The notes below the pieces were generated by a model. That model did not search any database and was not told the DNA's origin. It worked only from the letters and a program-made list of their open reading frames with translations. A program made the translations under genes and the position numbers. A stretch of 64,000 bases of DNA from Rozella allomycis CSF55. Taxonomy: Eukaryota; Rozellomycota. Below are positions 3 to 60,121 of the stretch, in pieces; position 1 is the first letter of the stretch, and the number at the start of each line of letters is the position of its first letter. The stretch is taken from contig KE561067.1 of NCBI GenBank assembly GCA_000442015.1, forward strand, positions 45,741 to 109,740, given 5' to 3'.

Positions 3-740
3 TGGTTAAAAACAGTAGCAAATTTATGTGCCAAACACGCAACTAATGAGAATAGGGAACTACCGAGTCGAACTTCATTCAGGTCAGATTTGGACTTTCA
101 TCTGAGTCACATACAAATGTATGTCCAAAGGGGAGAGATGAAAAATCAAAAAGTTGAGTTAAATGATAGGCAACAAAAGAAAATGGAAGGCGCTACAATT
201 TATAGAAAAATTATTCAAATTCAAGGCAAAAGGCTTAATGATCAAAGGGCAAGCTATGTGGATAAATTGGCAAAGTTAGAAACGGTCATAGACCAGCTAA
301 TGGAAAGTGCTAAGAGTTCATTCGACAATCAAAGGGTTGTATTAAGTGACGCCAAAAAGAGCGATATGGAATTATTAAGAATCACAAAATTGCTGGAAAA
401 AAGTGGCTCTAGAAGAATGGACGACCAAGTAATTTTCCCAATTTGATGAAAGGAGGTGTGGGTTTCCCAGAAACAACAAAAAGGTGAAGCCCTCGTTAAG
501 ATATCTGAAAAATTGGCCGATGATAATTCCAAATTCTCAGAGCAAAGGTTTACTGTAAGCAAAGAGAAAGAAAAGGACATGTTTGTAAAAGACATGTTTA
601 AGCGTTTGGATCGTATTGGAACAAATTTGGAAAATCAAAAGTCTATTTCCCCAGTAGAGCTTAAAGAAAAAAGACTTGATAGCGTAGAAAAGACTCTGCA
701 GAGATTGGTAATAAAATTCTCTTACTTTGAATTAGGATGA
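3..740 (+). CDS. Coiled-coil protein, 5' end outside the window
   Basis: The frame is open from base 3, so the N-terminus lies upstream of the window. It meets TGA at 444-446, but removing a GT-AG intron at 429..470 (42 nt) joins RRMDDQ to KQQKGEALVK in the same frame, and the product runs to TGA 738-740, about 231 residues. The protein is very rich in Lys, Gln, Glu and Asp with heptad-like leucines, as expected for a long coiled coil. No signal peptide, membrane segment or named domain is visible. I do not recognise it. It converges on the carrier gene that ends at 838. Confidence 0.6.
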
Positions 741-837
741 ATTTTCTTATTCAGATCAGAGGCATGAGTTTATCAAAAAATCAAAATCCTCCAACGTTCT
801 TAGCCAATAAATCTTAAAGTTACGGTAATTATTATAT

Positions 838-1869
838 TTATTTTTGCATGCTGTATTTTTGTTGAAGTTCATATGCAAGCAATGAAATGCCGAATAGTGG
901 AGCAACTATGAGGCATCTTTGTGCGGAACCTTTAAAGAACGCCTTTATGCCTTCTGTTTTATATATAACTTGATAACAATTTAGCATCCCAGAGTAAATA
1001 TTAGGCCTGTCGGGGTGATGCATAATCTGAATTCTAGTTTTGACAACTATTTTCATGTATGCATATAAAATACCATCCATTGGTGTCACTACAATAGCGG
1101 CAAATGAACCAGCCATTATCCCAGACGCAAACGTATGCCACAATTGAGATGAGCCTGTTTCCCTGTGCAGAGTTTGCTTTATATATGCAGACAAGGAGAA
1201 AAATATCAATGAGAAAGGTACATCTCTGTCTAGATAAAATCAATTGCTTTTACCTACACAAAGTTTGCGTTGTCCCTTTATATAATCCTCTTAAACCTAA
1301 TTCTTTTACAATTGTAGTAAGGGATTTTTTGGCGCCATTTTCACCTGCTATTTGCATTTGGATTTTGGCCATTTCCATGGGATTCGTCGCAATAACCTAT
1401 TTCAATTTACAACATCAATTTACTTGACAAAATCCAGCTGTAGCTCCTGCGACCTGTAACAATTATTTAATTTTATTACCATTCCATCAACAGTCGTCAG
1501 CTCTTCCATTTTTAAGTTTTTCCTCTTAGCAATTATTTCCCTGGCCGCATCGTTTACCGCAAGCTTTATTGCTTTTTCGGGGGTAACGCCAACAAGGTTT
1601 GGTACAAGCCCGCGGTATAAACCCCTAGCGCCCTCCATGCGTATTATTTGCTTAAACATATTAAGGCCAGATATGTTTCCCTTTTGATTTTGTAATCTAG
1701 TTTTTAATGTATCCAAAGGAAATATTCTACTATCTTAATGGTAACCGGGTTACATGGATGTCCCTAATACTCCAGCTATTGCGCCAGATTTTAGCTTTGA
1801 CGATAAATCTGTTTTATGAATTAACTTTTCTGAATCGATTAATGGTAATGTAGATGAAGGAGCTTGCAT
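838..1869 (-). CDS. Mitochondrial carrier, glutamate or aspartate/glutamate type (SLC25)
   Basis: Inner-membrane carrier with three SLC25 repeats. Repeat 1 carries PLDTLKTRLQ and GVTPEKAIKLAVND, repeat 2 NPMEMAKIQMQIAGE, repeat 3 PMDVVKTRIQ followed by LIVAPLFGI. The EKAIKL block is typical of glutamate (SLC25A18/22) and aspartate-glutamate (SLC25A12/13) carriers. No EF-hand extension is present, and repeat 3 looks more like the glutamate carriers. The signature motifs of repeats 1 and 3 become continuous only after removing 27-nt introns at 1727..1753 and 1047..1073, and at least one further intron lies between 1243 and 1440. ATG 1869 is the likely start because it precedes repeat 1 by about 30 residues; the frame also extends upstream to 1932. 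Confidence 0.8.
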
Positions 1870-1965: not shown

Positions 1966-3104
1966 ATGAATAAATTGAAATCAATTTTTACTGGTCATAG
2001 CAGAAAGAAAGAAAAAAATGAAAATGGAAGAGTGGTAATGTTTAATGAAAAAATGTCATAGATTGACTTTAGTTTTAAAAAGCTTTTTGAATATCCTTAT
2101 GATAGTATAATTGTCATTGAGCCGGAAGAAATAGGAACTTTGAAATTGGAGTAAAAATTCATAGTACATTTAAGATAAAGTCATAACTTCATCACAACTC
2201 TCCCACAAGATATTTTGGACCTCAGAAAACTGCATAGTATTTTCTTAAAGTAACATATATTACATCTCAAACTTAGCAATAATTATATAAAAATACTACC
2301 CAATGCATTATTTAAACTAAAAAATCTAAGATTTATTGATTTATCGAGTAATAAGTTGCGTGATCTATCAGATTGCGGTTTTGAACATTTGGACTTTCTC
2401 ACCAGCCTGAATTTGACCAACAACCAGTTAGAGTCGGTGCCATTGAGTCTCTTCAAATGTCATAAGTAAGTATTGCATTTTGTTTTTTCAGACTTAAACA
2501 TTTGGGGTTGGCCCATAACTTATTGAAGAGAATACCTGAAGAAATAGTAAATCTTTGCAACTTAGAAATGCTTACACTAAACGACAATAATATTTTAGAA
2601 ATAAGCAAATGTCTTCGTTCTTTACGACGCTTGGAAAGTATCACATTGTATGGCAATAAATTTAATGAAGCATTGCAATTTGTGTATCTACCTCAGAGTC
2701 TAAAATACTGCGGTAATCTAAATCATTTTTGTAATAGAGTAACTTCCGTACCATTCAGCGATACCTTTAATCCATGTTCAGAATTTCTGAACTCTCTCGA
2801 TTTGCGTGATGCCCATAAAAATTCTCTGGAAAAGAGTCTTTCTAACTTATCAATTAGTGATGAGTCTTTGGAAAACGTTTGCTCGATACCGCCACCCATA
2901 TCAAAACACGCCGCGGATTTCTGCACAAGTCCCACAAAATCCCCTAACGTTTGTCAATTATGTGGTGACTATATCTATCCAGAAAATGAAATGAGTGAAG
3001 AATTGAATAAAATTGAGCAAATAGAAAATTCTGAGATGCAGGATAGTCAAGAGAAATGGCATAAATTTTGTTATGAAGTTTGGAATACATCAATAAATGT
3101 TTAA
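1966..3104 (+). CDS. Leucine-rich repeat protein with C-terminal Cys/His motif (LRRC58-like)
   Basis: Typical 22-24 residue LRRs (consensus LxxLxLxxNxIxxLP) run through the first 200 residues, then a Ser/Glu-rich linker, then a possible zinc site CQLCGDYIYPENE followed by WHKFCYEVW. Four introns of 26-30 nt must be removed to keep the repeat register, for example 2466..2491 (26 nt), which joins FKCHK to LKHLGLAHN. ATG 1966 begins an open first exon reading MNKLKSIFTGHSRKK. The repeat type plus terminal Cys pair resembles the LRRC58 group; the function is unknown. The stop at 3102-3104 is 9 bp from the stop of FOL1 on the other strand. Confidence 0.75.
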
Positions 3105-3113: not shown

Positions 3114-5245
3114 TTATTTATTGAGCTTGTTGATTAGTTTCAATGACGAAGATAAGTCTTTGACGTTGTGTATGCGAATGACATTTGCCCCTTGCATGAC
3201 AGCATGGCAACTAACGGCTAAAGTTCCAAAATCTCTTGATTTAGCGTCGTCATTTTGAGTTAATTCTCCAATAAAGCGTTTACGGCTAACACCAATTAGC
3301 CACGGGTACTTTCCAAGTAATCTAGAGGATTTGAGTTGCTTGAGGTTTTGAAGGATTTCGAGATTTTGCTCTGTGTTTTTGGAGAAGCCAATACCAGGGT
3401 CCAAAATGATATTCCAGGGTCGAATGCCACTTTTCAAAGCGTTTGATACGATGGTAGATAATTCTTTTTCTAGAGTATTTATTAATCCGTCCTCATAAGA
3501 ATTGAGAGAATTCATAGTTTTAGAATTTCCTCTCATGTGCATTAAGCAGACAGGGACGTTAGCAAGGGCCATTGTCTTGTACATATTTTGATCTCTCAAT
3601 CCCCCGCTAACATCGTTTATCATATCAGCGCCCGCCTTAATAGCAGCAGCCGCGACCTCTGATCTGAAAGTGTCGATTGAAATAGGTATTTCATTATTTA
3701 CGCGTCTAATGGCTTCTATAACTGGTATAACTCTCCTTAGTTCTTCTTCGATCGCTGGCTCATCTGCAAAGGGTCTAGTGGAACAACCGCCAATGTCAAT
3801 TATGTCTGCCCCTTGTTCCACCATTTCCAAAGCATGTTCCACTGCTGCCTCGACGGAAAAATAATCACCGCCGTCACTAAAGCTATCCGGTGTAACATTA
3901 AGCACACCCATTATCACACAACTGTCATTCCAAGATATTGTTCTACTTCGAAATTTGGTAATCCACTTTGCCGCGTCTTCCGGATCGTAATTTTGAGAAT
4001 TTTGAAGAATGCTGTATAATTTTTTCATTTCAATTTGTAAAGTTGGGTGAAAGAAACTTGGATCGATGCTATTTCAAAGGTTTAAAAAAATTACTCGCAA
4101 AATGGTGCTAAAACAAACTCTCGCTCTGGTATTCTAGGATGAGGTATTGTTAATTCTGGTGTAATTAATTCTAAATCGTTATAAAATAAAATGTCTAAAT
4201 CAATTGTTCTGGGCCCGTTATCAATTTCTTTAACTCTTTTCAATTCTTGTTCAATACCCTGGAGAAAATGTAGAAGCTCTAGAGGATGGAAATCAGTTTC
4301 AATCTAATTATTAGGATTAAAATATCATACTTTGCAAACGGCGTTAAAGAAACTTGGCTGATCTAAAAAATACATCGGCTTAGTTTCGTAAAGGCGTGAC
4401 ACTTGAACTACCGATAGCTTTGAGCATTCCATCAAACACAATGCCGCGTTAATGTTACTATAAGAATCACCTAAATTAGATCCCAAAGCAACAAAGCATG
4501 TATTTCTCTTGTCATCCTTGCTAAGAGAATCATCTGTAAAATTGCTTTTTATCAAAACCCCTGCTCCATCAGCCTCCAAAACAGCGGCAGGTTTAAGCAA
4601 CTTGACAGAGACATGTTTGGAATATTCTTTACAAATATCCATCACAAAACAGCATAGACGTTCCACAGTCTTAAATTTTGTAGATTCAACCTCATTGACG
4701 CATCTTTCCACCATTTGCTTATAATTTAAATTTGAGTCGCCAAATATTTTAATGTCAAGTTTAATTGGTTGTAATTGAATTCTCTCAAATGAATTTAACC
4801 CAATAATAGCACGCAAAGCGAGCTCATTAATAGATATGTAATGAACATTAGTCAAACTGTCGACTCGATTTCTTGAAAAACAAAAAGCGAGATTATTTGA
4901 ATTCAATAAACATTTTGGTAAACTCACTTTACATTTGAACCAGTCAATATTGAATGAAAACAATACCAAAGATACTTCGTCTGCAAAATTAACAAGATCT
5001 TTAAATTTTTTATCCAGACAGAAATTTTTCAAAGTTTTAGCAACCGTCGAGTAACTTACTGAATCCTCTAAACTGTCAGTTTCACTGGTGGAAGATATAT
5101 CTATTTTGAGTTTCAAGTTGAAAATAACTGGCTGACTAGAAAATCTATCCCAATTATCAACTCCTACACAGCAACTTGTTTTAAAATTCTCCAATATAAC
5201 AAAACTCTCTGTTTCGGTCATGAAAAAATGGGGCTGGGATGTCAA
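3114..5245 (-). CDS. FOL1: Trifunctional folate synthesis protein (FolB-FolB-HPPK-DHPS)
   Basis: Single polypeptide of 692 residues for the middle steps of folate synthesis: dihydroneopterin aldolase, hydroxymethyldihydropterin pyrophosphokinase and dihydropteroate synthase. Two tandem FolB-like domains fill residues 1-290. HPPK follows with FVALGSNLGDS and NGPRTIDLDILFYND. DHPS follows with TPDSFSDGG, IGGCSTRP, SIDTF, DPGIGFSK and GVSRKRFIGEL. Introns at 4304..4330 (27 nt) and 4069..4094 (26 nt) restore HPPK and fuse it to DHPS, and the spliced length is an exact multiple of three (955+209+915 nt on the three exons). Domain order is as in ascomycete and Pneumocystis FOL1. DHPS is the sulfonamide target in this family. 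Confidence 0.95.
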
Positions 5246-7365: not shown

Positions 7366-7598
7366 TTATACAGATTCATATCCTCCTTGGCGGGTAAGAG
7401 CCACTTGCTCTGCAGCGATGTCTATTTCAGCCATTGACAATTTACCATAATTGCCTCTTGAATCTCCTCTTAGACTGCAATGTGGGTCTATCAGTATTTA
7501 CTACATTTGATTACCATAAAACGCAATGTTGGCAAGATATTCCACACAATACAAACATGCAGCACCTGTAATGATTACAATTGGAAATGGAGCCAGTT
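7366..7598 (-). CDS. Small conserved-looking membrane protein, 5' exon unresolved
   Basis: Two exons separated by a 27-nt GT-AG intron (7488..7514) encode about 68 residues: a hydrophobic stretch APFPIVIITGAACLYC, then YLANIAFYDPHCSLRGD and a C-terminus ending RQGGYESV. The exact 27-nt intron supports a real gene. The first exon is not solved: an ATG near 7692 opens a plausible start (NFGFKKGLRQFPLLT) but I could not join it in frame. Size and single hydrophobic segment would fit a small mitochondrial membrane protein, which is only a guess. The rest of 7237-7794 holds nothing I can support. Confidence 0.35.
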
Positions 7599-9486: not shown

Positions 9487-10273
9487 ATGAATCGTTATTC
9501 TTCAGATTTGCTTAAATTTCTACTTTACTTGGTCAATTTTCTTGCATTGGTATACAGATTAAGGTTTCTTATATTTAGATTGGAGGATTGGCATTGGTTG
9601 GGCTGTCAATTGCAGCAATAGTTGAACAAAATTCAATTCACGATTTTGTCATGTAATAACATCTTTTAGAATTTTATTAGGATGGGATATCCGGTTTCGT
9701 TGCTGATAATCGGGGCACTATTCGTTTTGTTGGGCTTATTTGGCATGTGGGCAACGGGTGTTCAGTCTGTACGTATGATCAGACTAGTAATGATTACTAA
9801 TGAACTCTATTAGTACCTAATTGTACTCTCCATTATAATTATCCTGCAAGTTGTCCTTACAGCAGTTGCATTATCTCAACATGACAAAGTAAAAACACTC
9901 TTTACGAATAATAGATTGATTCTATGGTGAAAGATGGATGGTATAGCGCCAATCCATCTGTTATTCAAAACGTCGAACAAATGTTTGAGTGCTGTGGGTA
10001 CAGGAATGTTCTGGATCATGCAATACCTGCAGATTGCACTAAAGATCCCAATTTTGGTTTTAAGAGATCTTGCAGATACCAAGTAATGAAATCAAAATTC
10101 TTTTAGAGATTGTCACTTTGGCTCAAAGGCATACAAGATTATTGGGTATAGTTGGGCTCATCCTTGGGGTCATGGAATTCGTAGCGTTAATATGTGCTAG
10201 CATTTTATTATATCAATTGGGAGGAGAAGACTGGAAACGAGAAGGAAGTATTCTTGAAGAAGCAAGAAGGTAA
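9487..10273 (+). CDS. Tetraspanin-like four-pass membrane protein
   Basis: Four hydrophobic segments with a large loop between TM3 and TM4. The loop carries the tetraspanin signature FECCGYRN and later Cys residues (PADCTKDP, KRSCRYQ), which fit two disulfides. Introns split the gene near segment boundaries: 9653..9680 (28 nt), one before YLIVLSIIIILQ, one after QHDK, and 10083..10108 (26 nt), which ends in AGAG and uses the distal AG. C-terminal tail EDWKREGSILEEARR is cytosolic. Tetraspanins organise surface membrane domains; in plant-pathogenic fungi Pls1-type members act in host penetration, but assignment to that subfamily is not possible here. Confidence 0.8.
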
Positions 10274-11302: not shown

Positions 11303-11345
11303 GCAATTGATCACTATTTCTAAAAATAGATTTAAGTGCTTCATN

Positions 11346-12314: not shown

Positions 12315-12416
12315 CAGTCAGTTCAATCAATAAAAAATAATTTTTGATCTTATAAAATTGATTTTTTATAATCATTTCTTTGATTCTCCATAGTTTTGAG
12401 CGGGAACAAAGCCACA

Positions 12417-15400
12417 ATGGTAAAGGTACTCAATGTAGCTGAAAAACCTTCTATGGCGAAAGCCATAGCAGATCATTTATCAAACCATCAATTTAGCACT
12501 GTATACTATAAGATAATAATATTTGTAGAGAAAAGGCGTAGACAAGTATTGCAACAATTTTGATTTTATTGTGTACCAGCAAAGAAACCAGATGCAGTGT
12601 GAGATGACAATGACGAGTGTTCTTGGACATGTAATGGAATATGCGTTTCCAGACGAGACGAAGAGTTGGACAGGCTATCCAGTTGAAAATATGTTTTCCA
12701 TACCGATAGTGAAAAAAGTTCATCCAGTAGAGGCATGATAGATTAATAATAGGACAAGGAGAGAATAAAGGTTAATTTGGAGAGGGAGAGTCGAAAAGCA
12801 GAGTGGCTAATTATTTGGACTGATTGTGACAGAGAAGGCGAGAATATTGGGATGGAAATTTCAGAAATATGCAGACGGGCGAATCCAAGACTATTAGTGT
12901 ATAGAGCCAGATTTTCTGTTGTCAATGGAAGGTTTGAATGATTTTGTTTGAAGAGTAGGGAGTTGAAGAATTCATTTGAGAATCTGTCGCAGATAGATGT
13001 GAATATGAGTATGGCGGTTGATACGAGACAAGAGCTTGATTTAAGGATTGGGGCTGCCTTTACGCGCCTTCAAACGATAAATTTACAAAGCAAATTTAAG
13101 AGTTTAGAAAAGACTGTGATATCGTATGGCCCATGCCAATTTCCAACGCTTGGATTTATTGTTGATCAGTATAGAAAAAATAAAGATTTTGTTTCTGAAT
13201 GTTTTTGGAGTTTGACGGCAACGTTGGAAAAGGAAAATAAGAATTGCGTTTGTTCATGGGCCAGGGGAAGCATATTTGATGAAAGAGTTGTTGAACTTTA
13301 TAAAACGATTTGCCAAAGAAGCCCGATAGCCAGAATAATGAAAGTGGATGAAAAGGCTACAAAGAAATAGTAATAGAGATGATTGAATGAAATAGTCGAC
13401 CCTTGCCATTGACAACTGTTGAATTTCAAAAGTTTGGCACGCGATATTTAAAGATGAGTTCGCACAAACTGATGAATGTAAGTTGATTCTATTTTATTGA
13501 AAGATTGCAGAGAAATTGTATAACAGGGGTATAATTAGTTATCCTAGAACAGAAACAGATGTATTTGAGAATGGAATTGATTTGAAGGGGTTGATTCAAA
13601 AACATTGCGATAACGAAATTTGGGGAAATTATTGCCAGGGTTTAATGCAGGGGTCATTTATGTTCCCAAGAAAAGGAAAACACAACGACAAGGCGCATCC
13701 CCCAATCCATCCAACGATGAATGTAAATAATTTGGAAGGAGAAGAATTTAAAGTTTATGAATTTATAACGAGAAGGTAAAATAGAATAATTGAATGGGAA
13801 AGATTTTTAGCTTGTTGCTCAAAGGATGCGTTAGGCGTTGAAACAAAAGTTGAAATAAAAATTGCTGATGAAACGTTTGCATGTTCGGGGCTTTTGATTA
13901 CGGAAAGAAATTATTTAGAAATTTACATTTATGATAAATGGAATGAAAATAGTTTACCAAAATTAATTGTTGGTGAAGAAATCAAAGCAAAAATTTCAAA
14001 AACGAATGGAAAGACTACTGCGCCACCATTGTTAACTGAAGGCGATTTGATTGGATTGATGGACAAGAATGGGATTGGCACTGATGCAACAATTCATGAT
14101 CACATTAAGAAAATTCAAGATAGAAATTATGCGAAAAAGACTTCAAAGGGTTTCATTCCAACGCCACTTGGTCTTTCTCTAGTTGAAGGCTACGACGCTT
14201 ACAATTTTGATCATTCTTTAACAAAGCCCCAATTAAGAGCTTTAATGGAATCTGAAATGAACAATGTTTGTCAAGGTTTAAAATCTAAAAATCAAGTTTT
14301 AGAACAGGGAATCAATTTATACTTTAATTTATTCATTAAAACTAAAAATTCTATCAATTTGTTATTGCAGGTAAAATGTTATGACTTTCTAAAAATAGGT
14401 ATGGCTTAGTGTTAATCTATTTTTAGAAAGTTTCAGAAAATTTGAATCAAGAAATTTCAGAAGATGACCACGTTGAGATAAATCGACATTCAAATTATGT
14501 TCAACCGTCAAACAATTCAAATTCAAATTATGTTCAACCGTCAAACTCAAATTCAAGTTCAAGTTATGTTCAACCGTCAAATTCTTTTTCTTCAAACACA
14601 TCAAATACTTTTTCTTCAAACTCTTCTAACTCNGTTCAACCGTCAAACAATTCAACTTCCAACTCATCAAACTCCTTTAACCCTTCAAACACATCAAACT
14701 CATATAACCCTTCAAATCCATCGCTGGAACAAAATACAAATTCCCCTCCTTGTAGCTGCGGTTTAAATTCATTTCTCTTCACAGTCAAAAAACAAGGCCC
14801 CAATCTTGGCAAAAAATTCTATTCTTGCTCAAAACCTCAAAATGAAAAATGCGATTTTTTTCAGTGGCTTGATCCTCCAATAGATCAGTCTGCGCCACAA
14901 AGATCTGTAGATGATTTTGGCTCTTCAATATCTTGTAACTGCAATAAAATAGTCCAATTAAAAACTGTCCAGAAATCTGGCCCAAATTATGGGAAAAAGT
15001 TTTATTCTTGTTCTACTTGCGATTTCTTTCTGTGGAGTCTCAACGACTCTTCCCACAGTCAATCCATTCAAGAGGCAATCAAATGCGATTGTGGGTTGGA
15101 ATCTGTTTCTTTCACGTGTCAAAAGCCTCCAAATAATGGAAGAAAATTTTTTAAATGTCCAAAACAAAGTGGAATGAAATGTTCGTTTTTTCAATGGGCT
15201 GATGAACATTCAACTACAAGGGTTGATCATAGTACAAGAGTTAATTACAATTCAAGAGATAGCAGCAATACATGGGATAACGCTAATACATGGGATAACA
15301 ACAATTCAAGGGTTAATCAATATAATTCAAGGTCTAATCATAATTCTTCTAATACAAATTCATATAATTCAAATGCAAACGTTGATTGCTTTCTTTGCAA

Positions 15401-15489: not shown

Positions 15490-15608
15490 TTTATCATATA
15501 AACACATTTAAAACTCATTATATAATTAAATTCTATTGTTAAGGTATAAGACGCTATAACACTTCAATGGGATCTCGATCTCTTCAGCCTATATATATCA
15601 CCGATGTC

Positions 15609-15616
15609 TATAAATA
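15609..15616 (+). promoter_or_regulatory. TATA box of CAP gene 2
   Basis: TATAAATA, 43 bases before ATG 15660. Between it and the ATG, GAGAAGTCCCTGTTACATAT is shared nearly letter for letter with the region before CAP gene 3, so the promoter and 5' leader were copied together with the gene. Confidence 0.6.
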
Positions 15617-15659
15617 ACTATCTCGATATATTTAGACGAACGAGAAGTCCCTGTTACAT

Positions 15660-27362: not shown

Positions 27363-28269
27363 ATCTTTAAATTCAGGGTCGCGTTTCTCAATGAACGCAG
27401 ACATCCCTTCTTTTTGATCATTCAAAGCAAATGTGCTTTGAAATAAACGTCTTTCAAATCGGAGTCCTTGTTCAAGGTTTAATTCGTATGCTGATATTTA
27501 AATTTGATTGTCACGTTACCTGAATTTACAGATTCTTTTGCCATCTGAACTACAGGCTTTGAAAATGAAGCAATTGTGTTTGCAAGTTTTATGGATTCAT
27601 CCAACAATTTATCCGCCGGGAAAACCTTACTAACCAACCCTGTTGTTTTATTGCCATTTGAATTTACCGCAACGCTCAGCCTCTTGAGCTGTTATAAACT
27701 TTCCTGTTAGAATCATTTCCATCGCTTTAGACTTTCCAATGGCTCTGATTAATCTTTGAGTTCCGCCAGCTTATTAATGAACTAAAAATTGTAGTACCCC
27801 CTGGAATAGTCCCTAGCTTGATTTCAGGTTGACCGAATTTAGCATGCTCCCCTGCGTAGATTATATCACACATCATAGCTAATTCACATCCACCACCAAG
27901 CTTATCACTTGCCACAAATCAATTTACTGCAAATCCATTAACAGCGGCAATGATAGGTTTTCGAATTTTCGTCACGTTGGTCCAATGCGACAGAAAATTA
28001 CCAGTATAGTTTGATACAAACGTCTTGTCTTGCATTTCTTTGATATCAGCACCGGCAGCAAATGCTTTTTCATTCCCTGTGATGACTATTGCGCCAACAC
28101 CTGTATCTGTGTCGCTTTCTGCCAATGCTTTATTCAATTCATGGAATACTTTGTCATTTAAAGCATTGAGAGATTTAGGCCTGTTAATTTCAATAACCGA
28201 AACGTTTTTTGACAAGTAAGATTTTATAAAATGGAATTCATTTGTTGAATAAAAACGAGAAAATCGCAT
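27357..28269 (-). CDS. ECHS1: Mitochondrial enoyl-CoA hydratase
   Basis: Hydrates trans-2-enoyl-CoA in beta-oxidation and valine breakdown. The N-terminus MRFSRFYS is Arg/Ser-rich, as for a mitochondrial presequence. Crotonase motifs: [24 protein letters not shown] (oxyanion), [40 protein letters not shown] (both catalytic Glu contexts) and C-terminal [18 protein letters not shown]. The motif at AVNGFALGGG is restored by removing intron 27901..27927 (27 nt), and [12 protein letters not shown] by a 28-nt intron. Four introns in all. Confidence 0.92.
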
Positions 28270-34211: not shown

Positions 34212-36161
34212 ATGCTTCCCAAGACGAATGATCCAACGTCCTGGAAAAAATATTTTGAATCACGATCGGATTATAATGCGTTAAGGATGTTACAGTTATT
34301 TTCCACAGCCGTTCAACTCATCCCACAATCCCGTTATAAAGAAGACGAAAATTACCTTACTCTTCTGCTCAATTATGCGATTTTATTGGCGTATGTAAAG
34401 AATATAATAGTTTCAAATAGGAAAACAGAGATTATTCTGATGTTTTTGACCAGCTGAAATCTATCAACCATAAAGCTTACGATGAAAACGAATTCGTGTT
34501 GAGAACCAGATTAAAATTACTTCAAATGACTGGTATAATTTTAAATTACTGATTTTAAGACGAAACTTATAAAGCTGAGGACATTTTAAGAGAATCTCAT
34601 TTGAATTCTAATTTGATATCTGATTTGCGTGAAAAAATAGAAGCTGGTGAGAGTGTAAATCTTGGGTTTAATGTATAAATTATTGAATGTTTAAAAAAGT
34701 TGATCTACAATCCCTTCAGAGAGCAGGATGCTGGTGATGATGTGGACACAAGTGACGAAAAGGAGAACGAATATGAGGAAAACAAATATATTAATTCTAA
34801 GCCAGAGTCTACAGGAAAAGTTCGCAAGTCTGGACTTTGTAATTTTGATTTTGATTGTTGATTAGCGGGCAAAGCAATGAAACTGAAAGACATTTTAGCA
34901 ATGGCGGAACAAGATGATGAAAATGAATGTGCAAACGTTTCCACTTTGACTGCAGAACAAACCTTTGGTCTTTCTGAATGTACCGTCAATTCTTCAATTT
35001 TGAAGAGCCCTGATAAAACTAAGCCTCTATGTGAGATTGAATTGGCGGGAAATCTAAGCCCGCCTTCAAGATTAAATGAAAAAACCGAAATTATAGAGGT
35101 TATTGAAAAAACTGAACATGATTATCAAAAATTTAAAGAAAACATACCTAAAACTCCTGATGTTGAATTCAATACAGTTGAGAAAGATTTAAATCAGTTA
35201 ATGAAAGAAATAAAGCCAAAATTGATTTCCTTTGGGGAATCTCAATATTTTCGGCTCCGGATGATTGGTCGAGGTGGCTCGAGTAAAGTTTATCAGGCGT
35301 TGTCGCCTACTGGAGAGTTGGTGGCACTTAAAAAGGTATCTCTTGATAATTCTGATCCTGAAATAATAAATGGCTATTTTTCAGAAATTAAACTTTTAAA
35401 TGCACTTCAGAATTCAGATTGGGTGGTTAACTTGAAGGAACATTTTTCAGACTCTAAAAATTTGTTTATTGTAATAAATACATTTTACGTTTTTAGGTTC
35501 TAGAGTTGGGCGAAGTCGATTTACATCATTACCTAAAGCAAGTCAAGGGAAAACCTGCCGTCATTTATAATCCCATGGTAAAAAGTATTTTCAGCCAAGT
35601 AAGCAACTCTTTTGTCTAATTTATGATAATTACGGCAGTTAAATCTCTTCATGACTTTGATTACATCCATTGTGACTTAAAGCCAGCAAACTTTATCTTA
35701 ATTGGCGGGTTTTGGAAACTCATAGATTTCGGAATCAGCAAAAGAGTAGAAAAAAACCATACTAGCGTCATCAGAGAAAGTCAAGTAGGTACTGTCAGGT
35801 AAAAATTCTACTTTGCAATTAAAGCTACATGTCACCTGAAATGATCATTGACTCACAAAATAGAAATAATGGTGTCTCAAAGGTATTTTTTCTTTTTGAT
35901 TTTAATGAGATTGGAAAGCCAGCTGACATTTGGTCTATCGGATGCATTTTGTACCAGTTTGTTTATGGACAACCCCCATTCTCGCACATACCCTCTTTAG
36001 TGCAACGGATAAAGGCCATTATAGATGATTCTTTTCAAATTAAATTTAATGAGAAACCTGAAATGTCAGTTTTGATAGATATCACTAAAAAGATCCTCGT
36101 CAGGCATACCAAGTCTAGACCTACAATCGAAGATTTAATAAATTATTCGTCAAATTTTTAA
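34212..36161 (+). CDS. MPS1: MPS1/TTK-like dual-specificity kinase
   Basis: Spindle-checkpoint kinase. The N-terminal part (WKKYFESRSDYNALRMLQLF ... ENRDYSDVFDQLKSIN) is a TPR-like module as in Mps1; a KEN-like acidic linker (DEKENEYEE) follows. Kinase domain from about 35250: IGRGGSSKVYQAL, VALKKV, YIHCDLKPANFIL (HRD variant typical of Mps1), LIDFGISK, YMSPEM, DIWSIGCILYQFVYGQPPF. Many introns of 26-28 nt, including 34395..34420. The join near 35595..35638 is not solved in frame with canonical sites, so a sequence error or unusual splice exists there. Confidence 0.85.
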
Positions 36162-37332: not shown

Positions 37333-37974
37333 TTATGTAGTTCCGTGAACCTTTTTTAAATGTACATTCAGAGCACTTTTTTGTGTAAATCTTCTGTCAC
37401 ACTGCGTACAAGGGTATGGCCTTTCACCTACTTTGAATGGAACGCCAAATTTACCTGTATGAGTTCTCAAATGAGCAACTAAATATGGTCTCTTTGCGAA
37501 TCTTTGTTCACAACCTGGATGTGTGCATTTAAACCGGCGTTCGTTAGCATGTGTTCTTAAATGAGCTAACAATTGCGATTTCCTAACACCTCTAAAGTCA
37601 CACCCTTGATAATAGCATTTCAATGAATTGATGTTTTCATTAGTGAATAGGCTATATTGATATCGTGATTGATCAATATCTGATTGATTGTTATGTGAGA
37701 TATCTCTAGTTATCTCATTTAATCTTTCCATTATTTTGGATAAGGAAAAAGATATTTCACCCAGCCAAATCCTATTTTCATTGTCTATTGTTGTTATCGT
37801 TTCTACTAGCGAAGACGTTAGAGAACTATACATTGTATTTATAGACTCCATAAATATAGGTGTTAGTGTGGACGAAGAATGGTCGATTTCACGTAGTAGC
37901 CTTCTGATAAACAAACGTGTTTGAGATTTATATTCTTGGATATTTGCAGAGTGATTATAGAGAGTGCTGTTCAT
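37333..37974 (-). CDS. C2H2 zinc-finger protein, three fingers
   Basis: The N-terminal 125 residues are helical and Ser/Ile-rich, then three TFIIIA-type fingers: CYYQGCDFRG...HLRTH, CTHPGCEQRF...HLRTH and CTQCDRRF...HLKKVH. The canonical linker THTGERPYPC between fingers 2 and 3 appears only when a 27-nt intron (37428..37454) is removed; unspliced, it would read THTGKFGVPFKVGERPY with no stop. Likely a DNA-binding regulator. The interval 37975-38247 has no gene. Confidence 0.8.
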   Translation of the reverse strand: MNSTLYNHSANIQEYKSQTRLFIRRLLREIDHSSSTLTPIFMESINTMYSSLTSSLVETITTIDNENRIWLGEISFSLSKIMERLNEITRDISHNNQSDIDQSRYQYSLFTNENINSLKCYYQGCDFRGVRKSQLLAHLRTHANERRFKCTHPGCEQRFAKRPYLVAHLRTHTGKFGVPFKVGERPYPCTQCDRRFTQKSALNVHLKKVHGTT

Positions 37975-38247: not shown

Positions 38248-39274
38248 TTAATTTTGTTTGGTATGCATTTGTTGAGGCTGGGGAATCGCTGAATTTATCA
38301 ATCTGAAAAGACTCTGAAGTAAAATAAGAGATTCATTAGCCAATGCGATTATTTGATGGGAATGCTTAACAAAACGCTTGGAATTATTTGATTCATCATA
38401 TGATTCTGAAGTTATTGCACTCTTTTCGCGGTTAGAATAATTATGTTACCCATCGCCCAGGTAATGAGAGAACAAAAGAACGAATCATTGAATTAACAGT
38501 TTGGGGTAAAAAGGAAGAACAAGATGAAAGCATTTCTAATACTTTCGATAAAGTTTGCACAATTTCTTGTTTCATTCTATTCGTAATCTGATGTACTCCG
38601 GCAAAAAATTCCTTGTTCGCTTGAATGAAAGCATCAGTCCACTCATCGAATGTAGTTTTTATACTTATTTGGGCATCTGAAAATGCTGACCTAAGTGCGA
38701 CAATGTTGTTATTGATTGTATCCTGTGATTCCTATATTTTATACAAATATTTTGTTTACCTGCAAGTAATCAAGGACACGGAATAGTTCCACGGACTGCT
38801 TTTCAAACTCTATTAATTATTTCAGTTCATTTACTTTATCCAGTTGTTTACAAGCAAATGAATCGAGATTGGAAGTTCCTATGGTTTTTAAAACTGGTTG
38901 ACAAACATATTTCATGCCGGATTCTACTCTTTCAGCACCATACTATGACTGAGTAGATCTTTTCTAATTACCTTGACAAAGGCACTATTGTTTTTAGACT
39001 GATTGTAAAATTGGCTAATGGAATGCACTAATGGATAAGTAGCGACTCTTGATAGAAAAGATTCGTTTTCTTTTCGATTATGAGGTCCAAGTTGCCCTGG
39101 GGATGCAGGCCTTGTTGAGTTTGAGGATGTAGATAAACGAAATTCAACAGAGGAGCAAGGCGATAATTCTGAAGTTGAATCACAAGCTAGAGCTAGCAAA
39201 TCAATTCCATTCATTTCGGAAAAGGCGTCCATTAAACAATTGACACGTGGCTGAGGTGATACAATCACAAGCAT
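38248..39274 (-). CDS. OPI1: OPI1-family transcriptional regulator
   Basis: The fungal Opi1/Yas3 signature is clear after splicing: FLSRVATYPLVHSISQFYNQ, FVKYGAERVESGMKYVCQPV and LDSFACKQLDK. In yeast Opi1 represses phospholipid genes by acting on the bHLH pair Ino2/Ino4 and is held at the ER by phosphatidic acid and Scs2; in Yarrowia Yas3 acts on bHLH Yas1/Yas2. Introns: 29 nt after AFVK, 27 nt at 38808..38834 (AGAG, distal AG), 28 nt after DYLQ, and 28 nt after LPGRW. The gene starts 12 bp after the stop of a bHLH gene on the same strand. A leucine zipper is not evident. Confidence 0.85.
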
Positions 39275-39286: not shown

Positions 39287-39880
39287 CTATGAAATAGAAT
39301 TTATTGAATTCAATTCTGATAAAATACTTTCTAGGCATTTGGATCGTTCAATAAGCCACTTTACATAAACAACAGCTTTTAGTGAGGAAGACAGAAAAAT
39401 TACTTTGAAATAATACTTTTGGTTTTGTTCGAGCGCCATGAAATCCTTCAAATGAGATCAGAGCAGATAATTGTTCATACGCCTCCTTGATATTCTTTCT
39501 TCGTCGTTTCTCGCTTTCTATATGACTTGCTCTTTTTGGAAATTTGTTGCGAGCCTTTTTATTCACGGTAAATTGATGAGGATGACTAATATTGGGATTT
39601 GTTTGCACTCTTATTAACAATATCAATAGCTACCTTGTTCCAGTGAAACGAATGAAACTTTTTCTGGAATAGTACCGCGTGGAGACCTTTCAAACTCCTT
39701 TCCTGTGACTAATTTTAATTCTAGATTTTCTGCATCATGCTGATCTTGAGCGTTAATTGAGTAGTCAAGGTGAAGATAATCATTGCTTACAAAAAGATCA
39801 TCGCATGATCTCATATCAATAATATTTTGCATAAACTCTGATAAAAAACATTGCTCTTGAGGTGAAAACAACTGCGACAT
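39287..39880 (-). CDS. bHLH transcription factor upstream of OPI1
   Basis: An acidic N-terminus (MRSCDDLFVSNDYLHLDYS) is followed by a bHLH domain: basic region ASHIESEKRRR with His-Glu-Arg for E-box reading, helix 1 NIKEAYEQLSALI, loop FHGARTK, helix 2 VLFQTVVYVKWLIERS. Introns: 39608..39633 (26 nt, AGAG, distal AG) and one of 28 nt inside helix 2. Stop at 39287. Position directly before OPI1 makes an Ino4/Yas1-like role plausible, by analogy only. The interval 39881-40205 holds no gene I can support. Confidence 0.8.
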
Positions 39881-41461: not shown

Positions 41462-42671
41462 ATGACCCAAGCGCATTCAGTTCTAGTCGGAATATCTTTA
41501 GGCACTTATTCTTGCTCTGTGAGTCATTTCAAGGATGGCCACCCTGAAATCATCCCAAATGAAGATGGCGATCGTTTTATTCCTTCCGTTATTACATTTA
41601 CAGAAGATACTATAGTAAATTAATATTCCATTTTTAAAATAGCTTGTAGGGACCCAAGCAAAAATCCAAGCGTTTAAAAATCCAAGAACTACGATATGTG
41701 ATTTTATTGGAGTTCCATTCGTCGACTTTGAAAAAAACAAATCCTTTGACAAGGAGAGTGAAAAGTTCGAATTAGGAGAAAATTTTTACTCTTTTAAAGA
41801 GCTTTTGAGAATATATTTATCGACCTTGAAAGTTTCAGCTGAAACTTACCTCGGAAACACAATTACCGGGGTTGTCTTGTCTATTCCGTTTTCTTTGTCT
41901 AAAGAAGAGCGACTGGTTTATTTAGATGCTGCAAAAGAAGCTTCACTTAATGTCATTCAGCTACTTGATGACTCATCTAGTTCAATGTACCACGTCATAA
42001 ACAAATATGCTCCAGAAAAGAATGAAGTGAAGGCGTTAGTTGTGGATATTGGTTATTCTAGCTTGAAATTAAGCACTTTTCACTCAAAAGATGGTTTACT
42101 TGTAACTCCATCTCAAATCCAACACACGGATTTTGGGTCGTCAAGTTTGACAAGGGTATTATATAACCATTTTTCAACTGAATTTAAAAGGAAAACCGGG
42201 ATTGACATTAATGATTACAAGAAGTCTGTGATAAAAATGAAGAATGCAATAGAGAAAACTAAAATGTCTTTGTCAAATGCTGATGTTTCCAATTGCTTTG
42301 TTGAATCATTGGCGGAGGGTGTTGACTTTTCGTCAACTATCAATAGAAATAAATTCGAATTCATGTCAGAGTCGTTTTTTAACGGCTTCAAAACTGCTAT
42401 CGTGCAATCCCTGAACTCTTTTCCTGTAGATATGGTAATATTGACTGGAGCTTCTGCAAGAATTCCAAAAATTCAATTAATAGCCAAGAATATTTGTGCT
42501 AGTGCTACTGTTATTGTTTCACCTGAACCAGAAGCGGACAGCGTGAATGGCGCAGCCACTCAAGCTCAATTGTTCAAAAATCTCTTTGATTTTCAATTTA
42601 AAGAAGATGACGTACTCGGATTAAATGAAGAAGAATGCATTTTGGAAAATGGGTTATATAAAATCAAATAA
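41462..42671 (+). CDS. SSZ1: Atypical Hsp70 of the ribosome-associated complex
   Basis: 393 residues after removing intron 41615..41642 (28 nt; 1,182 nt remain). The ATPase domain is recognisable (VGISLGTYSCSVSHF, FIPSVITF, VVLSIPFSLSKEER, ALVVDIGYSSLKLS, VDMVILTGASARIPKIQ), but catalytic-phase residues diverge and there is no full substrate-binding domain or EEVD. The length fits Ssz1/HSPA14, the partner of zuotin on ribosomes, rather than a canonical 640-residue Hsp70. 35 bp separate it from ALG11. Confidence 0.85.
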
Positions 42672-44231: not shown

Positions 44232-45564
<1,333 letters not shown>

Positions 45565-55856: not shown

Positions 55857-58800
55857 GAATGACTTTTACCAGGAAAAAATAATAGAGGGTGAATTTAAAT
55901 GGACAAAATTTCACACTATATACAAAAGATTAGCATGTTGCAAAAGTGTTTTACTTTCCGTCTACGATGAACAAGGGAATGAAATAAAGAAAATCAGTAA
56001 AGAAAAGGATATTAAATATGTGGAATGGCACCCCCAACGCAAATTGATGGCATATGCCAGCGGTGATGATGTATATGTTTGGAATGAAACTGAAGATCGA
56101 GAAAATGTCAAAAAAGTACAGGGTAATAATATCGTTTGTTGGAATGCAATCGGAAATAATATTTTGATTGGAAAAGAGGTTAAATCATTTAATATAAATT
56201 AACGTTTAGGATGGAAGCGTTGTTTGTTTTAATGTAGAGGTTAGTGGAAAGATGGGCAAAGAGAGGTTGTTGTATGAAAACAAAGGGAAAAAGAGAAGAA
56301 TAAATAAATTATATTCTGCGGAAGGGGATATAATTGTAATAATTTACGATGGAGATATTGTGATAATTAGCAAGGAAGACATTGTTGAGAGTGATGTACA
56401 GGGGAAGATAAAGGAATCTTTCCTAAAAGAAAATAAGTTGGTAGTTGTTTGCGAAGATTTGTTTGTTAATAAATATGATTTAGAAAGTTTTGAAAAGATT
56501 TCAATAAAATTGAGTAACAAGGGAAGAGTTGAATGTGTAACATGGATTTGTGGCAAAGAAGGAGTAAAAATGATAACGAGTGATGAAAAAAATGCGATAA
56601 AAATTTGGGATATTGAAGGATTGGGATGTGAAGAGATTGAATTAAAAGAAGAGTTTAAATCCAATAGAATCACATGTCTAAATAGTTTTCACTCGGATAT
56701 TCTGGTAGGGACTGATTCTGGCCATATATTTAAAATTAAAGTCGGCAATCAAAAGAACGATGAAATTATCGACAAGGATTTGAATAAAGACAATAAATGC
56801 CAACCAACTGAAAAATTTCATGAACTACAATTGACTGAATTTTCTGGCGGAGGTTTCATTGAGCAAATTTTCTTTCTAAAAGAAATGATTGGAATAAAGT
56901 TGAAGAACTTTGTCAAGATATTAAGTTTGAAAAAACGATTAATTAGAAAAGAAAACGAACAGGCTTTAATACAAAGTGATTTAAATAAAATAATTCTACT
57001 TGATAATGAGCGAAAATTTGAGATAAAAGAAGACTTTGAAATTAAGGAATTTTCAGGTTCTAAAAATAGATTTGCGGTTTCAAATCTCGAAGACATAAAA
57101 ATTTACGAAGATTTTAAACAAAAAATTAGTTTAAAAGAGAACCATCAAAGAATTTATATGATTAATGAGGCAAGTGACACAGATAATGAAAAATCAGACG
57201 GGAAAGGTAAAATTAACAAGTCTTCAATTATAGGAAAGAAAAATCCACAATCCTTCTTGGCAATCGTTGATTTTAATTCTTTAAAGATATTTGATTGGAA
57301 AAAGGGAGAAACAATATCTGCATTGGCTTTTGAAGAAATTATTTTAGAATCTATATGTTTTAACGACAAAATAATCTTAATAAATTCAAATAGAGAATTG
57401 ATTTTAATTAAATTCGATAAAATTGTGGAGACAATGAAATTGGATTTCAATCATGAAATTTATCAAATTGAAATGAACGAAAATTTCGTTGGCATCTCTT
57501 CCAGTAAAAGCATTACTTTTATTTATAAAGAAAACCAATTATTTTTATTAAATTTAAACACTTTTAAATATTCCAGCTTCTCAATAAACTCTGATTATTT
57601 TGTATTCGATTCGAAATTCCCCAATTTGATGCTTATCCAGTCCACAAATATAGTACAAATCTTAAACTTTTATAAATTAAAGGTTTCTTTTGGATTTATT
57701 ACAAATATACTGGAATTAGAGATATTTTCAACCAGATATATTTATGAAATTTCGCGATCTACTAATGAAATTTCTGAGTCTGAAAATGCTCCCGCGAACG
57801 CTACAAAAACTTTTCAAATAATGTTTTCTAATTTTAATTATTTTAGTATATTAGTTTTAGAAAACAATGATTTTTGTTTGAAGAGGATAGATTTCAATTT
57901 TGACTTTTCACTGGATTTTCTATATGGCATTTTAATCAACGGCAAATTCTTCAAAGTTGAAGATGAAAAAATTCTTAAGATTATGGCAAAGTTCTATTTA
58001 AATAATTTTGAAAAGAATTATGAAATACTGAAAGAGTGTTTGATTAAGTTAAAGAAACCAATTTTCATTCTTACTGGAGACCTTTCAAGGGACAAAATGA
58101 TCATAAAATCTATTCTTGGTATTCCCAACGAATCCGAAAGTAATATTATCGAGGATAAAGGCAATATCCCTGTTATAAACGAAAAATGCCATTTTAACAT
58201 CGAAAAACTACCCAATGACAAGAATACAATGCCTAAAAACAATAAAATAGATATCGAAACTAATTTTGCGACACCATATTTTCAAGGTGACGACGAATTG
58301 GATCGTGAAATTTGCAATCTGAAAAATTCCATGGAAAACATTCAATTACTTAAAAATTCATTTTCAAATAAATCCTGTTTACTTCTTAATTATCCAGAAG
58401 CTTACAGAATCGTAGGCAGGTTGGAATTTGATGGAAAAATTAACAATAATGACTTTCCTTCCCTTTCATGCTTTGAAACCTCAAATTCGTTCAACTTGTT
58501 CAAAGGGCAATTGTTGGAATCTGTAGGCTTAATATCGGAAGCTGATATGTACTACAAAAAGTCTAATAATTACTTTTATTCAAATAAACTATCAAATTCT
58601 GTATTCAATATCGATCAAATCGATGACAAAATGACCCTTTTTCATGTCGCTAAATCTTTGCAGACCTCAAATGTAAATTCCTAATTATATCTTCAAGAGG
58701 TTAATCAATCTATAAAGGCTCTTACCAAAGCTGGCTGCTTTAGATATGCGTCTCTCCTAGCAAAAGAAAATCATTTAGATATTGATTTATTGAATTTAGC

Positions 58801-60121
58801 TTTGATGGCCCCTCTTTACATTCTTCTTGATGCTGCTCAGTAACTCCTGCTTGATCTTGTAAAAAGATATTTTGAGAGCGTTAAAGATTATGAAAAAGCT
58901 TTTCTCTTATACAAGAAGGCCAATTATAATGAAAATGCACTGATTGTAGCCTTCATTGGCCAAAATCCTCATTTGATTGATCAGATCATCGCTTGCTCAA
59001 TTCAATTGAGCATAAAAGAGGAATTAATAAATGACATTTCCATGTATCTTTCAAAACTAGGTATTATATTATGTATACTTATTTCTAGGTAATACAATCG
59101 CAAAAAGTTCAAAGGCAAAACTGAAAGTATAGTAGATTTGTTAACCAAGACCGGAAATCACTCCCAAGTACCTCAATCGCGTTCATTTATTTCAAGGCAA
59201 TTAAGATTTGTAAAGAATTTGGTATTAAAATGCCAAATCAATTGGCATCCATAGCATTTAAATCTCAGGACTCTCTGATTGACCTTGCCAATCTTTGTAT
59301 AGAACAAGAAAATTACGAAGCTGCCTGTAAAGCTTTTCTTCAAGTATTAATGAATTAATTAATTTTCCTAGGCTAACGATTATGTCAATGCTGCAAAGTC
59401 ATTAATAAAAACGGGAAACTTGGATAAAATAATTAAATTTGCAAGTAACGAGCTATATTTTCATGTAAAGATGTCGCCGGCGCTAAAGATAAACAAGTTT
59501 ACATGTTGACCGCCAATTATCTTCAAACCCTGGATTGGCGGTCCAATGAATCTTTGCCAAGGGCTATTATTTCCATACTAACAAAAGCAAAATCATTTAC
59601 TTCCCTAAACAACTTTTATTTTCAGTTTGCTTCTTTTGAAATCCATGATTATCAAAATTACGAAAGAGTAACGATGTGATTTTTCCTGCGTTTAAGGCTT
59701 TGAACATATACAATGAAATGATAAAAATCAATCGCATGGGAACAAATACTAAAATAAACATGAATGACATAATTAGAAAAATTGATTTGATTTCAAAGTA
59801 CTTGGAAATGAAAAAGGCGCCAAGCTTGAGCCATTGCATTAGCATGGCAAATAAATTGCTCGATATACCCGACATAAATGTAAAACCTTAATTTTAGTCT
59901 CAAAGGATCATGTCAAAATTCTTGATATTCACTCTGGTTTGGTTTACAAAGCTTGTGAATTCATGGAATGGTCAAAAGCTAAGGATTTGTTAACGAATAT
60001 ATCTAACATCCATTCGAACTTGATTGATTGTGTTGATTTTGATACTATTTCTGAAATTTGCACGCACAACAATATTCCACTAGAAACATTCATACAAAGT
60101 TACGAAAATGATTTAGAATAA
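55855..60121 (+). CDS. IFT140: Intraflagellar transport protein IFT140 (IFT-A)
   Basis: Long WD40-plus-TPR protein of the IFT-A retrograde complex of cilia and flagella. N-terminal beta-propeller pieces (KYVEWHPQRKLMAYASGDDV, GVKMITSDEKNAIKIWDIEG), then helical TPR-like blocks: AEMYYKKSN-like ADMYYKKSNNYF, RYASLLAKENHLDIDLLNLA, AAQYFESVKDYEKAFLLYKK, DYVNAAKSLIKTGNLDKIIK, and the family C-terminus YMLTANYLQTLDWR, SFEIHDYQNYERV and MANKLLDIPDIN. Introns of 26-31 nt, e.g. 58673..58699 (AGAG) and 59880..59905. The middle is unusually Lys/Glu/Asn-rich. Assigned by the order of TPR motifs. Confidence 0.85.

Follow-up and report, generated by a model that had tools for sequence, protein, structure and literature searches.

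How introns of only 26 to 31 nucleotides (nt) are recognized, and what keeps them from being shorter, is the question raised by a 64,000-nt stretch of the Rozella allomycis CSF55 genome (contig KE561067.1, here C139, positions 45741-109740; hereafter the window). An initial annotation had read nearly all introns of this stretch as 26-32 nt long, with a sharp floor at 26 and a mode at 27, and had attributed them to a spliceosome working near its physical minimum. Very short introns are known from Paramecium (about 25 nt), Stentor (15-16), mikrocytids (16-17) and the chlorarachniophyte nucleomorph (18-21), and Malassezia is said to carry them as well (PMC7426719). Short-intron lineages have degenerate introns (Irimia and Roy, PMC2483917), and a density of 2.53 introns per kb of coding sequence has been given for R. 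allomycis (PMC8476143), no length being stated for these introns in the excerpts of that paper. The whole analysis was based on DNA sequence and on the comparison with homologues, splicing being read from the sequence. The explanation that we regard as quite probable is that these are ordinary U2-type introns with a near-rigid geometry, and that rows of such introns, called trains below, would be removed recursively, unit by unit.

Intron length spectrum

The assembly comprises 9,970,177 bases in 213 contigs, and intron lengths were surveyed in 294 kb of these 9.97 Mb, i.e., the window plus 23 pieces of 10 kb each. Introns were called with a semi-Markov gene finder that was trained on this DNA alone, considers GT...AG ends only and carries a flat intron-length prior from 10 to 400 nt; a second version with a learned length prior was used solely for candidate lists. 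With full splice-site models, 4, 1, 121, 73, 85, 34, 15, 9 and 6 introns of 24 to 32 nt, respectively, were obtained, the other lengths forming a thin scatter, and in the window alone the numbers from 24 to 31 nt were 2, 0, 35, 17, 21, 6, 2 and 3. The floor persisted when only the donor model was kept (0, 65, 46 and 53 introns of 25, 26, 27 and 28 nt) and when GT and AG alone were used (1, 15, 17 and 17). The sharp floor at 26 was therefore confirmed, with one intron of 25 nt for 121 of 26 nt. The mode was found at 26 instead of 27, although the 27-nt class is under-counted. Indeed, an in-frame stop was present in all 73 detected 27-nt introns and in 77 of 120 introns of 26 nt; because stop-free introns divisible by three resemble exon, the counts at 27 and 30 nt are too low.

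Predicted proteins were then compared with Protein Data Bank (PDB) sequences, a gap-free alignment at the exon join being the criterion, and introns were counted when their join appears in the printed alignment (the remaining Prp8 introns were not counted). This yielded 18 homology-checked introns in five genes, six of 26 nt, six of 27, three of 28 and one each of 29, 30 and 31, with small alignment gaps at least four residues off some joins in ribose-5-phosphate isomerase and in a divergent mitochondrial carrier. The 17 introns located by the initial annotation all start with GT and end with AG, on a single strand and exactly at the ends that it had read. The flat-prior finder called 11 of them exactly, and the six that it missed are all 27 nt long, since such introns resemble exon. 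Two of the six (1047-1073 and 1727-1753) are backed by the mitochondrial carrier alignment, and the other four (7488-7514, 29415-29441, 37428-37454 and 58673-58699) rest on the initial reading, all except 37428-37454 being called by the length-prior finder.

A 24-nt call at 1730-1753 was rejected, as the alignment with UCP1 gives one surplus residue beside the join, and the 27-nt intron 1727-1753 was preferred; for the other 24-nt call of the window, at 429-452, a frame-equivalent 27-nt reading exists. A 27-nt intron proposed by the length-prior finder at 44777-44803 was also discarded, nine codons being wrongly removed according to the alignment of the tRNA-guanine transglycosylase (TGT). The flat prior called many longer introns too, 36 of them above 61 nt in the window, and many of these calls, judged by eye, span separate genes. 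Calls of 35-70 nt between coding flanks numbered 53: nine follow the first-AG rule described below, four split into a train, and 23 of the remaining 40 are frame-equivalent to a shorter intron (chance 1/3, p 0.0014). The statement that nearly all introns are ultrashort thus holds for the well-supported ones, most introns being shorter than about 35 nt. The 26-31-nt segments are supported by the sequence as uniform, very small spliceosomal GT-AG introns of the U2 type, as is their place in the short-intron class known from Paramecium and nucleomorphs, here in a fungus-grade genome. The idea of a physical minimum was not upheld: because introns of 15-21 nt have been reported in Stentor, mikrocytids and chlorarachniophyte nucleomorphs, 26 nt is not a general limit of the spliceosome.

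A preferred adenine at position 23 and the first-AG rule

Neither the fixed adenine described here nor the trains had been noticed in the initial annotation. When introns were aligned at their 5′ ends, an A occupied position 23 (A23) in 89% of those of 26 nt and in 76, 62, 58 and 71% of those of 27, 28, 29 and 30 nt (67, 62, 65 and 67% for the latter four lengths in the larger 294-kb sample). Among 227 introns of 27-34 nt, placing the A at position 23 from the 5′ end gave a log-likelihood gain of 41.1, which none of 2000 within-intron shuffles reached, and the 14 other positions from 11 to 25 gave at most 1.6; counted from the 3′ end, the best gain was 12.7. A23 is found in 13 of the 18 homology-checked introns, in 12 of the 17 located by the initial annotation and in 54 of the 84 introns of 26-31 nt called in the window. 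In the class carrying A23, T at position 21 (134/245, p 4e-4) and G at position 22 (55/245, p 3.5e-4) exceed the interior background, an enrichment that fits a worn branch motif T-R-A. We infer that A23 is the likely branch point. The lack of a branch signature reported for ultrashort introns describes members of that class (PMC2483917) and is hardly a defining feature; the Rozella introns do show one, in the form of the A at position 23.

Every one of the 336 introns of 26-31 nt uses as its 3′ splice site the first AG that has its G at position 26 or beyond. Introns of 26 and 27 nt are uninformative for this rule, as an earlier AG from 26 is impossible in them, so that the informative cases are the introns of 28-31 nt (143 of 143) and of 32-34 nt (8 of 11). 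The rule is also followed by 18/18 homology-checked introns and by 17/17 of those located initially. Unused AGs with their G at 10-25 are present in 130 of the 336. Among the 227 introns of 27-34 nt, 19 have an AG overlapping A23 (G at 24), more than have one at any of the other positions listed. A branch at 23 followed by three nucleotides would place the floor at 26; the floor seems to be set jointly by how far from the 5′ splice site the A is preferred and by the exclusion of AGs before 26.

Donors read GTA(A), hardly any base being preferred at +5 or +6. At lengths 26-29, GTA accounts for 97-100%, A at position 4 for 69-74% and G at position 5 for 14-19%, while the exon positions -3 to -1 favor C (28%), A (51%) and G (41%) or A (39%) (n=327). 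The degenerate donor, largely GT(A), that characterizes the ultrashort introns of Paramecium, nucleomorphs and dicyemids is therefore found here.

Intron trains

Trains are exact concatenations of intron units with AG/GT joins and no exon between them. They were searched for on both strands of 347 kb from 41 partly overlapping sources, a sample that was not random (the Prp8 contig was taken because Prp8 was there). A unit was defined as GTA...AG ending at the first AG at 26-32, with consecutive units abutting. Seven chains of at least three units were found, versus none in the reversed sequence and a mean of 0.2 in five Markov-shuffled versions, and unit sizes of 12-18, 16-22, 20-26, 33-39, 38-44 and 44-50 nt gave no chain of at least three. 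Two of the seven required correction. The third unit of one three-unit chain is a Prp8 exon, and this chain was recounted as a two-unit train; L009 6740-6861 and 6947-7032 contain the same exon copied on either side of an assembly N and were counted as one locus. Five train loci remain, three of them within 5 kb in L007 and probably in one gene. Two-unit trains were used only with a GTA start and either homology or an exact rule-tiled fit, a longer candidate list admitting any GT being mostly chance.

The longest train, of 12 units, lies at C139:35204-35543 (L007 5204-5543), on the contig of the window and about 10.2 kb to its left, in the gene for CFAP43 (Pfam PF25828, E 1.3e-34). Its units measure 29, 29, 29, 28, 27, 29, 28, 28, 28, 29, 29 and 27 nt, which sum to exactly 340; the first-AG rule applied greedily tiles these 340 nt and stops exactly at the homology-fixed exon, and the join of the flanking exons aligns gap-free with solved CFAP43 proteins. 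GTA and AG are intact in 12/12 units, without any broken unit between the exon borders, while the interiors show a mean identity of 0.52 over all pairs, versus 0.46 for random sequence with the same aligner. In Prp8, the joins over a train of 28 + 28 nt and over one of 31 + 30 + 30 + 31 nt are gap-free. Across a third Prp8 train of 29 + 29 nt (90% identity), 59 residues over the join correspond to 59 positions of Pfam PRP8 domain IV, a match by positions with no printed alignment. Four trains thus have homologue-supported exon joins (CFAP43, 12 units; Prp8, 2, 2 and 4 units). In these four, AG/GT stands between complete intron units and the outer exons fit homologues when joined, as at the zero-length exons of recursive splicing. 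Full GTA...AG units abut, and no inner intron interrupts an outer splice element as it would in a stwintron.

Two further trains stand upstream of the 12-unit one in L007, at 767-852 (29 + 31 + 26 nt) and 4534-4703 (30 + 29 + 31 + 30 + 50 nt). They are taken as parts of CFAP43 from their position and open frames; no significant match was found for their flanks, the PDB comparison covering those of 767-852. An HSP90-like gene (weak match, E 0.0049) carries three units followed by a final one that can be read as 25 or as 34 nt. Read as 25 nt, it agrees with the alignment apart from one extra residue, and a unit of that length would break the floor. Besides, L009 6740-7032 (Prp8, C134) holds two versions of one exon and train, with differing units, around the N at 6923; they may be two alleles that differ in their trains.

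Splicing machinery

The initial annotation had suggested a comparison of U1, U2 and U6 and of the genes for Prp8, SF1 and U2AF with those of other fungi. U1 carries ACUUACCUG at its 5′ end and scores 69.0, slightly below the Rfam value of 69.5, and the pairing regions of U2 (GUAGUA), U6 (ACAGAGA) and the U5 loop are intact. With the GT...AG ends (17/17 and 18/18 in the two sets above), these pairing regions of the major small nuclear RNAs (snRNAs) place the introns in the U2 type; as the pairing sequences are canonical, an altered U1, U2 or U6 was rejected as the cause of the short introns. Prp8 is present in the genome, and so is SF1 (76.3 bits). The best match of the U2AF65 model was at C178, where a gene aligns in three consecutive pieces (model positions 188-509; 126.7, 27.8 and 20.9 bits), the whole-protein cut-off being 310.3. 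Below that cut-off, the model likewise hits 25 further sites here and two bacterial controls; the name U2AF65-like is therefore probable, not certain. The idea that the introns are degenerate because SF1 or U2AF was lost is hence not supported. RED is required for short introns in human (PMC6692369); it gave no match in the genome, and the control genomes were equally silent, which makes this result uninformative.

Probable traces of a minor spliceosome were also seen. A U12-like minor snRNA at C191:364863-364995 (L041 1501-1633) scores 36.4 bits versus 53 in Rfam and carries AGUAAGGAAAA and GCCUACUUUGC. Pairs of RTATCCTT...TCCTTRAY occur 10 times in the genome versus once in the backwards control (15 versus 2 with longer gaps), and seven of them share ATATCCTTTTTGT, with spans of 45, 47, 48, 47, 47, 48 and 54 nt. 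U6atac was not found in the genome, and the control was likewise silent, so that this search is uninformative. Judging from these sequences, the genome probably contains minor introns, in which donor and branch stand about twice as far apart as in the major ones.

Proposed mechanism and alternative explanations

The mechanism that we propose would start with the recognition of a weak donor, through C/A, A and G/A at exon positions -3 to -1 and the intron GTA, mostly GTAA. The A at position 23 would be preferred as the branch point, and the donor would be joined to the first AG with its G at 26 or later. Such an arrangement of donor, A23 and first AG would explain why intron lengths have their floor at 26 and become scarcer beyond 28. 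Among the longer interruptions, some would be complete intron units placed end to end, with AG/GT joins and no exon between, and each unit would be cut in turn, every cut setting the next GT against the exon, as a miniature form of recursive splicing. From the first-AG rule of single introns it follows that unit 1 would be removed first and that the next GT would then meet the exon. We infer such unit-by-unit removal, which is favored because a single 340-nt intron would leave its internal ends unprotected. In a more specific version, the Rozella spliceosome would possess a 5′-anchored ruler (branch at 23, first AG at 26 or later), trains would be spliced by repeated zero-exon steps, and introns would grow in whole units via tandem duplication; longer interruptions would survive as trains of up to 12 units because the ruler handles one length per step. 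To this version we give slightly better than an even chance.

Several observations weigh against the proposed mechanism. Position 23 is not an A in 97 of 342 introns of 26-32 nt (about 28%), so that A23 is a strong preference and no law; it is not enriched in the few 31-nt introns (2/6), and it did not reach significance at single lengths in a small set with good flanks that was called without splice-site models (5/8, 5/9 and 5/10; p 0.11-0.17). Other branch-like positions were tested too, and A at 22, T at 20 and T at 24 showed no enrichment. Introns without A23 are more T-rich near their 3′ end (0.47 versus 0.39) and may use other branch points. An earlier AG is present in 3 of 11 introns of 32-34 nt. 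Exons show no avoidance of GTA + A23 + AG decoys, with 127 seen for 130.3 expected under synonymous shuffling of 138 kb of predicted exon (ratios of 0.74 to 1.00 at 12 other offsets), and GTA + A23 + AG is therefore insufficient to define an intron. As for the trains, two-unit chains do not exceed every control, since they number 17 in the real sequence, 9.6 in the Markov versions and 49 in the reversed one, with 10-19 for other unit sizes. The apparent 50-nt unit has no AG between 26 and 50, so that long units are possible. Chains were found by their ends, the exon borders being fixed independently, and the removal of a train in one long step is possible in principle. By eye, several introns without A23 show a CTAAT- or TGAT-like word farther upstream and a T-rich end; they perhaps form a second class with a conventional branch point, and a word count gave no clear separation of the two classes.

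Other explanations were weighed as well. That GT..AG pairs were picked because they restore a frame, their lengths not being those of real introns, is scarcely credible. Alternatives equivalent by multiples of three do exist, the 44777-44803 intron was false and one 24-nt call was better read as 27, yet the length prior was flat, 25 is nearly empty and 26 full in all three versions of the finder, and the PDB alignments support 18 introns. We consider it improbable that the 3′ structure is the fixed element, with the A belonging to an extended 3′ splice site (AWAG) or to a branch at a set 3′ distance and with the length uniformity reflecting a drift towards small size. An A at position 23 of a 26-nt intron can just as well be counted as -4 from the end, the base preceding AG is mostly A or T, the gain of 12.7 from the 3′ end was reached by only 1 of 2000 shuffles, and the branch A of Stentor shifts with length, from position 10 in 15-nt to 11 in 16-nt introns. 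The signal of the 27-34-nt Rozella introns is nevertheless sharp from the 5′ end only.

The trains could also be minisatellites lying in longer single introns that are removed in one step, the AG/GTA boundaries being a by-product of the duplication of an intron-sized repeat, an explanation that deserves attention even though we think it rather unlikely. The neighboring units of the 29 + 29 nt Prp8 train are 90% identical, the interiors of neighbors in the CFAP43 train are up to 0.87 identical, and repeats with periods of 28-29 and 57 were detected there by Tandem Repeats Finder. Over all pairs, however, the CFAP43 interiors stay at 0.52 for a random 0.46 while every unit keeps its GTA and AG, and the tiling ends exactly at the homology-fixed acceptor. 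One-step removal would moreover break the first-AG rule kept by all homology-checked introns, and other unit sizes yield no chains of three or more.

Features of the window

The introns of the window discussed above are collected in Table 1, together with a candidate train in TOP3.

Table 1. Introns and candidate train of the window (window coordinates; "example", intron located by the initial annotation; AG positions refer to the G).
Feature	Position	Strand	Base at 23	Gene	Basis and remarks
Candidate train, 28 + 28 nt	14371..14426	+		TOP3	join AG/GT 14398/14399; first-AG rule tiles exactly; both flanks open, coding-like; join at residue 598, beyond PDB alignment (3-589), exon join not homology-proven
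Intron, 28 nt	12501..12528	+	T	TOP3	gap-free join with TOP3-alpha 4cgy
Intron, 26 nt	12727..12752	+	A	TOP3	homology-checked
Intron, 27 nt	12932..12958	+	A	TOP3	homology-checked; AGs at 22, 24 skipped
Intron, 26 nt	13370..13395	+	A	TOP3	homology-checked
Intron, 26 nt	13478..13503	+	A	TOP3	homology-checked
Intron, 27 nt	13776..13802	+	G	TOP3	homology-checked
Intron, 26 nt	44442..44467	+	T	TGT	gap-free join with QTRT1 6h45
Intron, 28 nt	44633..44660	+	A	TGT	homology-checked
Intron, 31 nt	45114..45144	+	A	TGT	homology-checked
Intron, 26 nt	29902..29927	-	A	ribose-5-phosphate isomerase	homology; one-residue gap four residues off join
Intron, 27 nt	30025..30051	-	T	ribose-5-phosphate isomerase	homology-checked
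Intron, 27 nt	1047..1073	-	A	mitochondrial carrier	example; homology; missed by flat-prior finder
Intron, 28 nt	1226..1253	-	A	mitochondrial carrier	homology-checked; AG at 24 skipped; gap about five residues away
Intron, 27 nt	1397..1423	-	A	mitochondrial carrier	homology-checked
Intron, 26 nt	1454..1479	-	A	mitochondrial carrier	homology-checked
Intron, 27 nt	1727..1753	-	A	mitochondrial carrier	example; AGs at 20, 24 skipped; both finder versions chose 24 nt, 27-nt reading judged from alignment of the 24-nt protein
Intron, 27 nt	4304..4330	-	A		example; GT/AG ends, flat-prior finder
Intron, 27 nt	7488..7514	-			example; length-prior finder only
Intron, 27 nt	27901..27927	-	A		example; flat-prior finder
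Intron, 27 nt	29415..29441	+			example; length-prior finder only
Intron, 27 nt	37428..37454	-	A		example; called by neither finder version
Intron, 27 nt	38808..38834	-			example; flat-prior finder
Intron, 27 nt	58673..58699	+	A		example; AG at 25 skipped; flat prior chose 45 nt
Intron, 26 nt	2466..2491	+			example; flat-prior finder
Intron, 26 nt	4069..4094	-	A		example; flat-prior finder
Intron, 26 nt	10083..10108	+	A		example; AG at 24 skipped; flat-prior finder
Intron, 26 nt	34395..34420	+	A		example; flat-prior finder
Intron, 26 nt	39608..39633	-	A		example; flat-prior finder
Intron, 26 nt	59880..59905	+	A		example; flat-prior finder
Intron, 28 nt	9653..9680	+			example; flat-prior finder
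Intron, 28 nt	41615..41642	+	A		example; flat-prior finder

Other features of the window were recorded as well. The product of an intronless gene at 19752-20816 is 97% identical, over its full length, to a protein of R. allomycis CSF55, and its next 15 matches (41-47%) come from chytrids or other zoosporic fungi where named. Five of 11 single Ns, at window 36729, 42960, 45256, 48386 and 62975, are centered in a two-copy tandem repeat; these repeats look like contig joins with an unresolved overlap, and the genes over such Ns (e.g., TGT at 45256) contain short false duplications. Three similar genes at 11340-17690, which start with MSSADANKLLALTNQHRAS or the like, probably encode secreted CAP/SCP proteins. 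A coding 93-nt tandem repeat with 8.2 copies lies at 23335-24098 and presumably encodes ankyrin-like repeats.

Significance and comparison with known systems

In human test introns, splicing fails when the donor-branch distance falls below about 46 nt (PMC11291888). In Rozella, whose lineage stands beside the intron-poor microsporidia and whose U1, U2, U5 and U6 have canonical pairing regions, this distance is likely to be 22 nt. Should A23 be the branch point, recognition by counting and not by sequence would become examinable in one organism. If units are indeed removed one by one, Rozella would offer a compact natural system of recursive splicing, and whole-unit duplication would be a way of intron growth that bears on the origin of introns. 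In practice, a gene finder whose lower limit on intron length is set at 30 nt or above will annotate the Rozella genome wrongly. No precedent for a row of ultrashort introns was found in the open-licence literature, among the matches listed. Published Rozella intron lengths were not found in the open literature either, supplements and subscription papers lying outside the search, and the word "intron" is missing from the main texts of the 2017 Paramicrosporidium and 2018 single-cell papers.

Among known systems, Paramecium (P. tetraurelia and P. bursaria) resembles Rozella by its median intron of 24-25 nt and its GT(A) donors without downstream consensus (PMC12862383, PMC2483917), and P. bursaria keeps an exonic -2/-1 consensus, somewhat as Rozella does at -3 to -1 (PMC12862383). 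In contrast, P. tetraurelia shows no branch signature (PMC2483917), whereas Rozella has an A at a preferred 5′ distance; trains, which Rozella has, are not mentioned for Paramecium in the excerpts of these two papers. Stentor coeruleus shares a near-invariant branch A, a weak branch motif and canonical U2/U6 pairing regions, but its A is tied to the 3′ end (PMC9505925), while that of Rozella is tied to the 5′ end and stays at position 23 for lengths 26-30. Encephalitozoon cuniculi, a relative of Rozella, also carries very short GT-AG introns (median 32 nt, 13 introns; PMC2483917); its introns number a few dozen and keep strict donor and branch motifs, in contrast to the many degenerate ones of Rozella. 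The trains recall the recursive splicing of Drosophila and vertebrates, in which AG/GT at zero-length exons regenerates a 5′ splice site, except that there long introns are cut at the consensus (Y)nNCAG/GTAAGT (PMC5126111), whereas the Rozella pieces measure 26-32 nt and stand up to 12 in a row. Fungal stwintrons (spliceosomal twin introns) are likewise complex intervening sequences excised by consecutive splicing reactions, but they are nested in such a way that the outer intron has one of its splice elements split by the inner one (PMC7138796), whereas the Rozella units are complete and lie side by side. What is distinctive here is the 5′-anchored A, the density of such introns in a microsporidian relative and the trains.

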